Shown piece after piece: positions 2,590-31,533 of a stretch of 31,533 bases of DNA (positions are counted from its first letter, which is position 1; each line of letters begins with the position of its first letter). This DNA is from a virus. The stretch is from IMG/VR virus record IMGVR_UViG_3300029998_000087, positions 1 to 31,533 of that record; one strand, written 5' to 3'. The notes under the pieces are model-generated. The model was not told the DNA's origin. It worked only from the letters and a program-made list of their open reading frames with translations, and did not search any database. The position numbers and the translations under genes were made by a program.

Positions 2590-4529
2590 TGTTTTTCTCA
2601 GAATCAGAGCCAATATCAAAGAAAAGGCAACCGACTAAAGTTGATCGGTCTTTTTCTATGTCTGAATTTAAGCCTTTTGATTTATTTTCTGATCAGGAGT
2701 TGTTAGATGCTAGTCACTCAACCCTTATTTTTGATATTGAATGTTATTCTAATTACTTTCTTATTTTCTTTAAGTGTGTGGATACTAAAAATGTATGTTA
2801 CATGGAAATGTCTCCAGACTCCAAAATTGATTATAAAAAATTGGAATGGATATTGTGGAATTTTCTACTGGTTGGGTTTAATTCGAGTAATTATGATATC
2901 CCTATGTTGCTTTTGTGTCTTAAAGGTCTTTCTACTTTAGAATTAAAGAGAGTAAGTGACAGAATTATTAAAGAAGAACTGCGAATTCGTCAAATCGAAC
3001 AAGAATTTAATATAAAAATGCCCACAAAGATTAATCACATTGATTTGATTGAAGTGGCCCCGTTAAAAGCTAGTTTGAAAACATACGCTGGACGTGTGCA
3101 TTGCCCTAAAATGCAAGATTTGCCATTTGATCCTAATCAGATTTTAACCAGAGACGAAGCAACAGCTATTTTGCATTATTGTGAAAACGACTGTGACAAT
3201 ACAGCAATTTTGTTTAATGAATTGCAGGATCAAATTAAACTTAGATATGTAATGTCTGATCAATATGGAATTGACCTACGCTCGAAAAGTGATGCTCAGA
3301 TTGCAGAACATGTATTAGCTTCCGAAGTTGCAAAGATTAATGGATTCTGGCCAAGGCGTCCGGCCATCCTTGACGGGCAGACCTACCGGTATCAGGTTCC
3401 GGCGTTCCTGGCGCTTGCTGGCCCCCAGGCCCAGGCCGTTTTGGCAGTCATCGAGGCTACCGATTTTCGGATTGGAGCCAATGGCGCTGTTGAGTTGCCA
3501 GATGAGTTAGATAATTTAAAAGTTAAAATCGCAAAAGGTATTTACAGATTAGGCATTGGTGGTTTGCATTCGTCGGAAGAAAAAACTTGTCACAAAGCCG
3601 ATGATAATTTTATGTTACTTGACCGGGATGTTGCAAGCTATTATCCTAGTATTATTTTGAACTTGGGTTTATACCCTAAGCAAATGGGCGAACCGTTTTT
3701 GGATGTTTACAAAACTTTGGTCGATCGACGATTGAAAGCAAAGCATAATGGAAATAAAAAAGAAGCTGATTCTTTAAAAATCGTAATCAATGGAAGTTTC
3801 GGCAAGCTTGGTTCAAAATATAGTTGCCTGTATGCGCCCGATCTTTTGTTACAAGTTACCATTACTGGTCAATTGGCTTTGCTTATGCTAATTGAATACA
3901 TCGAAATGGTTGGAATTCAAGTTATCTCTGCCAATACAGATGGAATTATCATCAAATGCCCTACAGAACGATACGATGAACTTAACAAAATTATCGAATG
4001 GTGGGAACATGAAACTCAATTTATCACAGAAGAAACTCGATACAAAGCTGTTTATTCTAGAGATATTAATAATTATATTGCAATTAAAGAAGATGGCAAA
4101 GCGAAAGTTAAGGGTTGCTACTCTGAAAAAGGTTCTGCATTAAATAGTGCATTGAGTAAAAATCCTGAAAACATTATATGCAATGATGCTGTAATTGCAA
4201 AATTGACAGAAAATATCGATATTGAAGAAACTGTCAGAAATTGCAAAGACATGCGAAAATTTGTAACTGTGCGAAATGTTAAGGGAGGTGCCCACAAGAA
4301 TGGCAAATATTTAGGCAAGGTTGTAAGATTTTACATTGCTAAAAATGAACCTGGAACGATAAATTATGTGTTAACTGGAAATAAAGTTCCTAATAGCGAT
4401 GGAGCTAAATCCATGATGGATTTAGCTCCAATACCTAATGATTTAGATTTTGATTATTATATTAAATGCGCTGAAAATATTTTGTATGACATTGGATATT
4501 ATAAACCTAAACAAATTGGTTTATTTTAA
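2589..4529 (+). CDS. Family B DNA polymerase with 3'-5' exonuclease
   Basis: 646 residues. The exonuclease domain shows ExoI as FDIE (D49, E51), ExoII as GFNSSNYD (N98, D103) and ExoIII as YCEND (Y197, D201), so proofreading should be active. The polymerase domain has motif A as DVASYYPS (D347), motif B as KIVINGSFG (K397, N401) and motif C as ANTDG (D451). Motif C therefore has Asn where family B enzymes usually have the first Asp of DTD. At 646 residues it is compact, with no obvious TPR2 insertion or terminal-protein partner nearby. This is presumably the phage replicative polymerase, acting with the helicase and clamp-like protein encoded upstream. A GC-rich island (67% at 3351-3450) codes for the segment between the exonuclease and motif A. 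The stop codon overlaps the stop of the converging tailspike gene. Confidence 0.95.
   Translation: MFFSESEPISKKRQPTKVDRSFSMSEFKPFDLFSDQELLDASHSTLIFDIECYSNYFLIFFKCVDTKNVCYMEMSPDSKIDYKKLEWILWNFLLVGFNSSNYDIPMLLLCLKGLSTLELKRVSDRIIKEELRIRQIEQEFNIKMPTKINHIDLIEVAPLKASLKTYAGRVHCPKMQDLPFDPNQILTRDEATAILHYCENDCDNTAILFNELQDQIKLRYVMSDQYGIDLRSKSDAQIAEHVLASEVAKINGFWPRRPAILDGQTYRYQVPAFLALAGPQAQAVLAVIEATDFRIGANGAVELPDELDNLKVKIAKGIYRLGIGGLHSSEEKTCHKADDNFMLLDRDVASYYPSIILNLGLYPKQMGEPFLDVYKTLVDRRLKAKHNGNKKEADSLKIVINGSFGKLGSKYSCLYAPDLLLQVTITGQLALLMLIEYIEMVGIQVISANTDGIIIKCPTERYDELNKIIEWWEHETQFITEETRYKAVYSRDINNYIAIKEDGKAKVKGCYSEKGSALNSALSKNPENIICNDAVIAKLTENIDIEETVRNCKDMRKFVTVRNVKGGAHKNGKYLGKVVRFYIAKNEPGTINYVLTGNKVPNSDGAKSMMDLAPIPNDLDFDYYIKCAENILYDIGYYKPKQIGLF
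4400..4430. other. Perfect 13-bp inverted repeat inside the polymerase gene
   Basis: The arms 4400-4412 and 4418-4430 are exact complements around a 5-nt loop (ATGAT). The repeat sits in the last 130 bases of the polymerase gene, just before the two operons converge. Neither strand shows a T-tract after it, so it is not a classical intrinsic terminator. It could slow or process either transcript, or protect a 3' end. Confidence 0.7.
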
Positions 4530-6157: not shown

Positions 6158-8728
6158 TTAGGAAATTATACCGTTAATATAATCTTTATCGTTTTGATAA
6201 TATCGTTCATCGTAATTTGTTGCTTTAAGTGTCGATGTTAATACTCCTTTAGGTGTTTTTTCGGTTACAATAAAAGCCATTGTTCGCGTATCAGTATTTG
6301 ATGTAACAATAAATGTTGTTTTTGCAAATCTATCATAATCTGTAACTAATGGTAAATTTGGTGCTGAATTTAGAATAATTTTATTTTTAACTGAAGTTTT
6401 TGTAATAGGAATAGAATTTGTTGTCCCATCGTAATATTGTAAAAATATTGTATAAGAAATTTCATCTAATAAATCTAAATCTTGTGATAAATACAGTTCT
6501 AAACCGTTTTGTTCAATTATTTCGCCTTCAAAACTTCCTGATCTAGTTCCATCAGATACTAAAATTCTATCACTAATTAAACATACGTTAGCTTCTTGGG
6601 TAGCTTCAAATTCAACATCCATAGTTTGATATTTAATTTTGTTATATAAACGATGTGCATTAAAATAAGCTTGCTGATAGTTTCTAACACCTTTAGATTC
6701 AATTGATTTAGCGTTAGTTGCGCTTTGATCAGACGGTAAATAAATATTTATTGTAGACTCATCCTCAGGATTAATGTATTGATATTCTACTCCATCATTA
6801 TCATCAATATTACCAAAACTAACAGTTCTGGTTTCAGTTCCGGGTATTTTATTTCTATGATTGAAAAGAATTGTTGAGGCATCATTTAAACGTTCAAAAG
6901 CAATTTTTATTAAATTTCCCCTTCTATATCCAATACAATTTATTGAATCACAAATAGTTGAAATAATGTCTTCAAAAGATAAATCTGATGCATCGAAAGT
7001 ATAACAAAATTCAGCAACTTTTGAAGTTCCAAAATAAGATTTTATTGCTTGAACTGTGTCATAAATTCCAATTAAATCAATTTCATTTTGTAATCTATTT
7101 CCGATTTTTGAATCGGTGCATACTGATAAAAGAATGTCAGCAACATCATTGCTAGCAATACCGGGATCATTCATATTTCCGCTAAAAATAACACCATTTG
7201 CCCATAATTCAGGTTGTTTTTTAATAACAAGCATATTTAATTTACGTTCACTAACAGATAAAGCCGATGCAGTGCCCACAGAAAGCGACTGAACAGTAGT
7301 TATATTTCCAAAATCAGTTTTATTAACAGGTGCAAAAGAATACATGTCACGCCACTTAACATCTTCGGTTATTGTATATCCAGATACCACTGTTTTTGCA
7401 GTTAATCTTTTTGCTTCAACTTTGAATTTGTGGCCCGCAATCATACCAACTTCAATAGTTAAACCGCATACCAAATTAGCGTTTCTATTCCATCTTATTG
7501 TATTTGCTAAAAAACTAGGTGAAGCAATTGGATTGTAATTATCATCTACTGGAGTAACTCTTAATTCAATAACAACAGGAAAATCAATTCTATTAGAGCC
7601 GTTATCCCCATAAATACCTTGTTCAGCAACGAAATTGCAACAAATAGAAGTTATATCTTTTCTTTCTGTATAAAAAGGGCCAGTCCAGTCATGAGAATCG
7701 GATTCGATTGAACCGCTAATTAATGGAGTATCTAAATTAGCTGTAATCCATTTTCCCCAATCCACACTAACTGTTGATGGACTACTAACTACAATATACA
7801 ATTCACTAACTTCAGTAATCGTATAGGTTCCATTTAAATTATAAGATTGATTATTAATTGTATTGGGCGCCGTCATACCTGAATTAGTAAACGTCGTTCC
7901 TGTAATAATTGCAGAGTCGCCTACGTTAAAATAATCTCTAAAATCATAACCTGCCCCACTTTGAATTGAAATTTTACCTGTTTTGCCAAAAATTAAAGTA
8001 GTATCTGAAACAATATACAATTTTCCTTCGGGTGGCAAAGTCTGGCCATTTACTGAAGAGTATCTAATGACCGTTTTAATTGGAATTGATATTGGATCTC
8101 CGATTGTTTTAATAGGTGATCCTGAATTAGGAGAAGTTTCCGGCCAATAAATACCTAGCGCAGCATTTTGAATTTGAGAAAGTAGCGTGGTATCTTCACG
8201 AATATCTGAAATAGCGAATTTTCCACGTCCAATGCACATATAAGAATGTTCATATTCAATATTATTTTTATAAAATTTATAAGGCAAAGCTAATAATGTT
8301 GGAATGCTTCTAACAGTTCCGTATATATCTTCAATTCGCCCATTTACTCTAGCTTTATTTGTTCTATCAGATAAAGAATTATTTGATGAACTAGCAGTTT
8401 CATTTGTTGTCGGAATTACTGCTTTTTTCTGAAATAAAATATAAACAGCTAAAGTAATGATTGCTAATATAACAGAAATAATTGTGATAGCTTCGCCAGG
8501 AAAAACAACAATATAAAAAGGGCCTTCTAGTTTAGATAACGTTTCAATATCTTTTTCATTTGCTGGTGTTACATCAAACGTTGCGACTACATTTCTATTA
8601 TAAATTCTAGCATTTTGTGGCCAAACTTTATAATACTGCATAATAAATTCTAAAATATCTTCAGTTTCAAACTGTTTCCAAGTTTGATCATCCAGTGGAT
8701 TTTCAATTACATTAACTGTTTTTGACAT
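6158..8728 (-). CDS. Tail tip / host specificity protein (lambda J-like)
   Basis: 856 residues. The N-terminus has a hydrophobic segment (about residues 82-100, after FPGEAI), as in lambda J-like central tail tip proteins. The middle contains the domain that forms the tail tip ring, and the C-terminal third has fibronectin-like beta-rich repeats (about residues 740-850). It starts 17 bases inside the NlpC/P60 gene and precedes the tailspike, the usual order of tail-tip modules. It closes the distal end of the tail tube and helps dock the tailspike. Sequence divergence from lambda J is large; the assignment rests on length, the N-terminal hydrophobic segment and context. Confidence 0.8.
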   Translation of the reverse strand: MSKTVNVIENPLDDQTWKQFETEDILEFIMQYYKVWPQNARIYNRNVVATFDVTPANEKDIETLSKLEGPFYIVVFPGEAITIISVILAIITLAVYILFQKKAVIPTTNETASSSNNSLSDRTNKARVNGRIEDIYGTVRSIPTLLALPYKFYKNNIEYEHSYMCIGRGKFAISDIREDTTLLSQIQNAALGIYWPETSPNSGSPIKTIGDPISIPIKTVIRYSSVNGQTLPPEGKLYIVSDTTLIFGKTGKISIQSGAGYDFRDYFNVGDSAIITGTTFTNSGMTAPNTINNQSYNLNGTYTITEVSELYIVVSSPSTVSVDWGKWITANLDTPLISGSIESDSHDWTGPFYTERKDITSICCNFVAEQGIYGDNGSNRIDFPVVIELRVTPVDDNYNPIASPSFLANTIRWNRNANLVCGLTIEVGMIAGHKFKVEAKRLTAKTVVSGYTITEDVKWRDMYSFAPVNKTDFGNITTVQSLSVGTASALSVSERKLNMLVIKKQPELWANGVIFSGNMNDPGIASNDVADILLSVCTDSKIGNRLQNEIDLIGIYDTVQAIKSYFGTSKVAEFCYTFDASDLSFEDIISTICDSINCIGYRRGNLIKIAFERLNDASTILFNHRNKIPGTETRTVSFGNIDDNDGVEYQYINPEDESTINIYLPSDQSATNAKSIESKGVRNYQQAYFNAHRLYNKIKYQTMDVEFEATQEANVCLISDRILVSDGTRSGSFEGEIIEQNGLELYLSQDLDLLDEISYTIFLQYYDGTTNSIPITKTSVKNKIILNSAPNLPLVTDYDRFAKTTFIVTSNTDTRTMAFIVTEKTPKGVLTSTLKATNYDERYYQNDKDYINGIIS

Positions 8729-25439: not shown

Positions 25440-25760
25440 TCAATGTCTCCCATCAAGTTTGAAGTTGTCATTAATTTTTCTATAAACTTTTCTGTCACTT
25501 GCAATGTGAATTTCAAAATCAGTTCTCAAATCTGTAAAATCTTTATTGAGAGAAGCAATTTCAACTTTGTGTTCTGCTACATTTTTTGTATTCTCATTCA
25601 GCTTTTCAATTGCAACTGCTAATAGTGTAATCTGTGAGGCCTGCTTTTCGTGCAAGTCATACAGGAGCCATGCCGAAGCCGTCACGATGCTTGCCACTAG
25701 CCAGGACAGCGCCCGATATACCCTGTCTGACGTTCTGCGCTCTGATTTGTCTGTGACCAT
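25440..25760 (-). CDS. Membrane-anchored coiled-coil protein, candidate inner spanin
   Basis: 106 residues from the ATG at 25760; an earlier in-frame ATG at 25808 is possible but lies close to the terminator. A short charged N-terminus is followed by one membrane segment (LSWLVASIVTASAWLLY, about residues 18-34) and about 70 residues of heptad-like helix. This N-in, single-TM, periplasmic coiled-coil layout is that of inner spanins. No lipoprotein partner was found nested or adjacent, so an alternative role such as holin regulator is possible. The N-terminal codons are much more GC-rich than the rest. Confidence 0.5.
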   Translation of the reverse strand: MVTDKSERRTSDRVYRALSWLVASIVTASAWLLYDLHEKQASQITLLAVAIEKLNENTKNVAEHKVEIASLNKDFTDLRTDFEIHIASDRKVYRKINDNFKLDGRH

Positions 25761-25820
25761 GCCTGACCCCAATCCACAAGGCCAAGCATACGGCAAGCCA
25801 AGCGGCACGGCTAGGCAAAG

Positions 25821-25850
25821 AAAAACCCCGGCGGTTGAATGCCGGGGTTC
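25821..25850 (-). terminator. Strong intrinsic terminator between accessory and lysis regions
   Basis: On the - strand AACCCCGGC and GCCGGGGTT (arms 25841-25849 and 25824-25832) form a 9-bp stem with an 8-nt loop, followed by T-rich sequence. It would end transcripts of the regulator-like gene before the lysis and structural genes, so the late genes need their own promoter or anti-termination. I could not identify a convincing late promoter between here and 25760. Confidence 0.88.
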
Positions 25851-25981
25851 CCTTGGCTAACATTTAAATTCAAATTCCGAGAATCAATCTCAGCGAATTA
25901 CCTTTGTTGTTATTTAATCCTGTTTCGCAGCGCAGGAACCAAGTATTCCAAACTTAGCGTATTAGGCTCACAGTTTGGAAA
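25851..25981. other. Gene-free stretch with a 9-bp inverted repeat
   Basis: Between the terminator and the stop of the regulator-like gene there is no credible gene. TTCCAAACT (25946-25954) and AGTTTGGAA (25972-25980) are perfect inverted copies separated by 17 bases, directly after the gene's stop. No T-run follows on the - strand, so it may be an operator or RNA-processing hairpin instead of a terminator. A late promoter could lie here but none stands out. Confidence 0.6.
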
Positions 25982-31156: not shown

Positions 31157-31228
31157 GCAAATATTATTTTGAATTGATGCAAATCACATGTGCCCACAGA
31201 ATAACCAATTTGGCATAAATTTTGATAC

Positions 31229-31268
31229 AAAAACACCCCAGACCGCCCTTGTTTCGGTTGCTGGGGTG
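31229..31268 (-). terminator. Intrinsic terminator
   Basis: On the - strand CACCCCAG (31268-31261) pairs with CTGGGGTG (31241-31234), with a second inner helix ACCG/CGGT, and is followed by TTTTT. It ends the putative structured RNA and insulates the early promoter downstream. Confidence 0.82.
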
Positions 31269-31384
31269 CGCTGGAGGTCCGGCTTTCGCCAGTCCGTGCT
31301 ATACTTTCTCTTGCCTAGGATACCGGATGCCTAGGCGCCGCATTAACGGGGATTGGCTGATCGGTTCCAACCTGCGACCTTTGA
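31229..31384 (-). ncRNA. Candidate structured small RNA
   Basis: From the promoter at 31391-31418 a transcript of about 155 nt would run to the terminator. It is far more GC-rich than the flanks and folds locally: GCCTAGG (31313-31319) pairs perfectly with CCTAGGC (31330-31336) around a 10-nt loop; CTGGC/GCCGG (31279-31292) closes a GAAA tetraloop; the terminator forms a last stem. No convincing - strand gene with a ribosome site was found. It matches no RNA family I recognise. One part resembles tRNA anticodon and T-arm text but the stems do not pair. Confidence 0.5.
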
Positions 31385-31387
31385 GCT

Positions 31388-31430
31388 ATCAGTATCAAGT
31401 CATTCAACCCAAAGTCAAGGTGATACTGAT
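31388..31430 (-). promoter_or_regulatory. Promoter flanked by a 10-bp inverted repeat (candidate operator)
   Basis: On the - strand TTGACT (31418-31413), a 16-nt spacer and GATACT (31396-31391) form a promoter. ATCAGTATCA (31388-31397) and TGATACTGAT (31421-31430) are perfect inverted copies 23 bases apart; one covers the -10 box, the other lies just upstream of the -35 box. This looks like two half-sites for a repressor or activator. From 31431 to the window end nothing but a short GCATA/TATGC hairpin (31442-31454) is seen. Confidence 0.6.
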
Positions 31431-31533
31431 CACACTAAATCGGCATACTTTATGCTTACTGCATTCTAATTAAAACTTAATAAATCAGCCTACGCACCCT
31501 ATCCAGACTCCAGCGCTCGATGCCCGATTGCTG

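Follow-up and report, generated by a model that had tools for sequence, protein, structure and literature searches.

A candidate small non-coding transcription unit at an operon boundary of a Septimatrevirus/Lokivirus-like phage

Introduction

AgvB and EcOnc01 are phage-borne regulatory small RNAs of pathogenic E. coli prophages, and AgvB pairs with a host sRNA (PMC4104026). Small non-coding RNAs were found by stranded RNA-seq in the lytic staphylococcal phage K (PMC9241854), and RNA anti-CRISPRs (Racrs) are small phage RNAs located downstream of a predicted promoter (PMC10651486). In AT-rich genomes, GC-rich sequence between genes is an accepted criterion in searches for structured non-coding RNA (PMC6429828).

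Here we describe a locus in a linear virus fragment of IMG/VR (IMGVR_UViG_3300029998_000087; 31.5 kb, 36.2% GC), which was analyzed over its whole length of 31,533 nucleotides and is referred to as the window. An initial annotation had proposed a complete promoter-hairpin-terminator unit at positions 31229-31384, leaving the strand unnamed. All of these parts were present, on the minus strand, but the promoter and the overall fold were at chance level. We tentatively favor a small self-contained non-coding transcription unit on this strand, a reading to which we would assign slightly less than an even balance of probability.

The candidate unit resembles AgvB and EcOnc01 in combining a short intergenic RNA (a candidate RNA in the window) with an intrinsic terminator in a phage region. 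AgvB and EcOnc01 were experimentally detected, are Hfq-bound and are borne by prophages, whereas the window unit is known from sequence alone. Phage K is lytic and has small non-coding RNAs, as proposed for the window phage; the two phages are unrelated. With the Racrs the candidate shares the arrangement of a small phage RNA behind a predicted promoter. Their likeness to CRISPR repeats was not seen in the window unit, with no CRISPR repeat family among the Rfam matches up to E 10, a comparison that covers Rfam repeats only.

Results

Genomic context

Comparison with PHROGs identified genes for portal, terminase, scaffold, major head, tape measure and tail proteins on the minus strand of the window, and for a helicase, a polymerase processivity factor and a DNA polymerase on the plus strand. 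The nearest named phages were Septimatrevirus and Lokivirus members and their relatives, such as Pseudomonas phage 73 and Escherichia phage Halfdan, with up to 61% identity in TerL and 45-47% in the portal protein. The gene order of the window is that of these relatives. The window phage is a Septimatrevirus/Lokivirus-like, lytic-type siphovirus.

By synteny, the candidate unit would sit between the primase-helicase gene and an early operon of small genes. Upstream of it, only 18 codons of a minus-strand frame precede the window end at 31533, with no likeness to known primase ends; the upstream operon is probably the primase-helicase operon. Downstream of the candidate RNA lies the strong early-operon promoter TTGACA-16-TATATT (31156-31129, minus strand; 11/12 consensus matches); several related phages show the same order of terminator and promoter. 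A scan of 20 kb for minus-strand promoters of 11/12 grade returned three sites, at 31156-31129, 27078-27051 and 26610-26583. All have TTGACA and a spacing of 16 nt, the value previously ascribed to the early promoters. All three of these strong promoter-like sites belong to the early region. The first early gene (31103-31032, minus strand), read from the sequence as ~23 codons long, apparently encodes a 23-residue hydrophobic peptide, MHYFGRFILAFTFMGCIAIWLAK, behind a good ribosome site.

An intrinsic terminator at an operon boundary

The minus strand carries an intrinsic terminator at 31268-31229, in which the hairpin CACCCCAG...CUGGGGUG (31268-31234; -19 kcal/mol, z -3.65) is directly followed by UUUUU. 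Hairpins of this strength with T5 directly after them occurred four times in the window and not once in 10 shuffled windows. All four lie on the minus strand, with T-tracts starting at 31233, 25825, 17965 and 13919. The terminator is real and above chance, as the initial annotation had it, and the excess over shuffled windows (4 against 0/10) was counted in favor of a small RNA. A small RNA gene is expected to have an intrinsic terminator of its own, and the candidate unit ends in one.

The same hairpin can be accounted for differently. We compared the gap downstream of the primase-helicase gene across named phages and related contigs. In phage 73, PSV3, FtMidnight and contig L050, a terminator lies at most ~50 nt past the primase stop codon, with a TTGAC(A/G) early promoter after it. 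The gap of Kmi2C has a weaker hairpin with T6; those of AH03 and RcMotherGoose have the early promoter without a strong terminator; and the gaps of Halfdan, L029 and L042 are longer and likewise without one. The window shows this Septimatrevirus-type order, with the terminator at 31268-31229 and then the strong early promoter at 31156-31129. Because several relatives have a terminator followed by an early promoter in the same gap, the window terminator is an expected feature of an operon boundary. Assigning it to a small RNA, as first proposed, is therefore one of two explanations for a terminator that is itself present.

The whole locus could be no more than an operon boundary. Transcription of the upstream operon would then stop at the hairpin and U5, ahead of the strong early promoter; the GC-rich stretch would be an inert spacer or belong to the 3' untranslated end of the upstream operon, and the 9/12 promoter described below would be a chance match. 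We regard this as a serious possibility, closely behind the small RNA and nearly as likely. The gaps of phage 73, PSV3, FtMidnight and L050, which have the terminator and the TTGAC(A/G) promoter and no RNA unit, argue for it, as does the weaker hairpin of Kmi2C. It does not account for the ~200 additional bases of GC-rich, non-coding sequence in a genome that is compact and of 36% GC. These lie between the terminator and the last upstream stop codon of the window, against at most ~50 nt in phage 73, PSV3, FtMidnight and L050, and were counted toward a small RNA. Phage 73, PSV3 and FtMidnight, and the Lokivirus Halfdan, have the same gene order as the window, and the first three also share the terminator and the subsequent TTGAC(A/G) promoter downstream of the primase-helicase gene. 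In contrast to the window, none of these four gaps contains a GC-rich extra unit with a promoter-like site of its own. By this comparison, the terminator is explicable without a small RNA, and the extra ~200 bases are what is unusual. Note that in PSV3 (L105; 3019-3286) the primase 3' end and the terminator are present in tandem duplicate with a spacing of ~121 bases; the duplication may be genuine or may have arisen in assembly.

A second boundary of this phage, at 25750-25865 on the minus strand, has an intrinsic terminator and then a GC-rich stretch, after a DUF7303-like gene and before the lysis genes. This boundary after the DUF7303-like gene is conserved, occurring also in L002 (~640-700), L007 (~2900-3010) and L008 (~8080-8180). 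Its sequence is partly shared between the window and L002 (80% over 50 nt), and in L007 and L008 it includes -10-like TAGACT sites that may mark a late promoter. That this boundary (~25.75-25.85 kb) likewise combines a high GC content with a terminator was counted against a small RNA and in favor of an ordinary boundary.

A GC-rich body with local hairpins

The non-coding body of the candidate RNA (31386-31269, minus strand; predicted 5' end near 31384-31386) has a GC content of 57.7%, compared to 36.2% for the window, whose 31.5 kb contain nine GC peaks, this one included. This GC content is above chance, and a body of 58% GC in a 36% GC genome, with no recognizable protein frame, was counted in favor of a small RNA.

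Both local hairpins of the initial annotation could be recovered. The first, GCCUAGG-10-CCUAGGC (31336-31313, minus strand), forms with a predicted pair probability of ~1.0. The second is the GAAA-capped hairpin CUGGCGAAAGCCGG (~31292-31279, minus strand), which with its flanks spans 31298-31276 in the predicted fold. Locally they score z -2.1 and -3.4, values for hairpins picked after the fact. The fold model also has a multi-branch core, which GCU/AGC and AGGUC/GACCU close with fair pair probabilities of ~0.7-0.9. A 9-nt complementarity between 31268-31276 and 31508-31516 was at about chance level.

Stable or conserved secondary structure is a usual, though not strict, requirement of independently transcribed small RNA genes. 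The whole unit folded with z -1.4 to -1.9 relative to shuffled sequence, and the body without the terminator with z -0.37. By this modeling, neither fold is above chance; the GC-rich body and its hairpins stand, but as a fold the body behaves like shuffled sequence. Together with the chance level of the promoter, this was counted against a small RNA and argues for an operon boundary.

Promoter-like site and flanking inverted repeat

Upstream of the body, the minus strand carries the promoter-like site TTGACT-16-GATACT (31418-31391; 9/12 consensus matches). Sites of this grade were found nine times in 1.5 kb, where 5.9 ± 2.7 were expected, and 13% of shuffled upstream stretches had such a site. 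It is not above chance. A perfect 10-bp inverted repeat, ATCAGTATCA...TGATACTGAT, absent from the initial annotation, flanks this site: one half (31421-31430) lies just upstream of the -35 hexamer and the other (31388-31397) overlaps the -10 hexamer. Such a repeat arose in 1.4% of shuffled copies of the 434-base region (P ~0.014, a local value). Because it was noticed post hoc, we take it as a hint of an operator and not as proof; its position around the promoter-like site is suggestive of one. The placement of the promoter-like site, its 16-nt spacing as in the early promoters and the surrounding repeat were counted for a small RNA, and the repeat is not accounted for by an operon boundary.

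The repeats at 31388-31430 and 31313-31336 could instead be protein sites in a DNA element next to the primase gene, such as a replication origin or a regulator binding region. In keeping with this, the inverted repeat is perfect, there are two TGCCTAGG copies 16 nt apart, and replication genes adjoin by synteny. Yet there is no iteron array, a search of the window found no further exact copy of the half-site, and the T5 terminator would have no role. We consider a DNA element improbable.

Coding potential and searches for relatives

Frames open at the locus include one of 83 codons on the plus strand (31222-31473) and two of 30 and 23 codons on the minus strand. No relatives of the 83-codon frame were found in IMG/VR viral contigs, GTDB genomes, Pfam or PHROGs, and none of the three peptides had a significant match in related loci. 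The 23-codon frame (31370 to ~31299, minus strand) starts with TTG and has AAAGG 7 nt upstream, a segment mostly paired with GACCU near the 3' end in the predicted fold. A tiny coding unit might then consist either of this frame, its ribosome site masked by the GACCU pairing, or of the 83-codon frame. That both are open, and that the first early gene of the window is of similar length (~23 codons), speaks for such a unit; the TTG start, the non-consensus ribosome site and the lack of relatives speak against it. AAAGG and the TTG frame are not good evidence of translation, and we consider a coding unit quite unlikely. The earlier view that the interval holds no credible gene is borne out, as no protein frame was recognizable.

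The claim that it belongs to no known RNA family likewise agrees with the Rfam search, which gave no match over the window at the gathering threshold; at a lax threshold the best score was 16.8 bits against a required 50. A tRNA/tmRNA search found none, and AAAGGTCGCAGGTTGGAACC, which resembles a tRNA T-arm, does not pair as one when read by eye. Searching phages and plasmids with the candidate unit by blastn returned nothing. Exact patterns of 25 and 20 nt had no match in IMG/VR, and an 18-nt pattern had five, about the chance expectation, none of which extended. Over 82 related loci (1.34 Mb), a structure-based covariance model of the unit matched itself alone. No matches were obtained with an early-gene protein as the query. 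Searches with terminase and VRR-NUC yielded nearly 100 loci, among which early genes were recognizable in one contig only (L008, the same contig as L087), and a terminase search of GTDB genomes gave no loci with recognizable early genes. The absence of a homologue was counted against a small RNA.

Pairing of the candidate RNA with phage gene starts was weak. The best target, the gene start at 25808, reached only P ~0.04 in a calculation that ignores folding, and this site is itself GC-rich; this too was counted against a small RNA.

A parallel stretch in a related contig

L008 is the closest relative that includes the region (TerL 65% identical; 37.6% GC). Here a single small frame comes after the primase gene, then a stretch of GC-rich, non-coding sequence (822-1003) and finally a strong early promoter, TTGACA-17-TATACT. 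The stretch reaches 63% GC, has two terminators and folds significantly (z -4.5 as a whole; -4.7 and -3.6 for the two halves), and a 9/12 promoter-like site, TTGAAA-16-TATTCT, lies upstream of it. Rfam searches at gathering and lax thresholds returned nothing for it. As a candidate small RNA it is, by predicted folding, structurally stronger than the window unit.

Comparison of the two revealed no sequence similarity beyond short matches. The L008 stretch is a positional parallel and not a homologue. Its presence at the same place was counted for a small RNA in the window, and its lack of real similarity against. A comparable structured stretch in L008 is also left unaccounted for if the window locus is an operon boundary only.

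Discussion

If the locus is a small non-coding transcription unit, as we tentatively favor, host RNA polymerase would start near 31385 and produce an RNA of ~155 nt with a GC-rich hairpin body, ending at the intrinsic terminator at 31268-31229. The same terminator would shield the early operon from upstream transcription, and the promoter might be switched by a protein that binds the 10-bp inverted repeat. The most likely action would be that of a trans-acting RNA which, early in infection, base-pairs with RNAs of the phage or its host or else titrates a protein. The unit may have been acquired in the manner of a phage 'moron'.

More speculatively, the interval between the primase and early operons may, across this group of siphoviruses, be a hot spot in which different lineages (the window phage and L008) carry unrelated GC-rich small RNA units that act early on the host; we consider this unlikely. 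Neither a small RNA nor an operon boundary at this position would be very surprising to a specialist. The interest lies in the presence, at one and the same boundary of two related phages, of additional GC-rich sequence bounded by terminators. If it is not transcribed, the locus is an ordinary operon boundary. If transcribed, it would provide an early small RNA that has no known relatives and comes from a siphovirus of lytic type. The boundary between primase and early genes would then be a place to seek such RNAs in many related phages, of which several are in culture (phage 73, Halfdan and FtMidnight).
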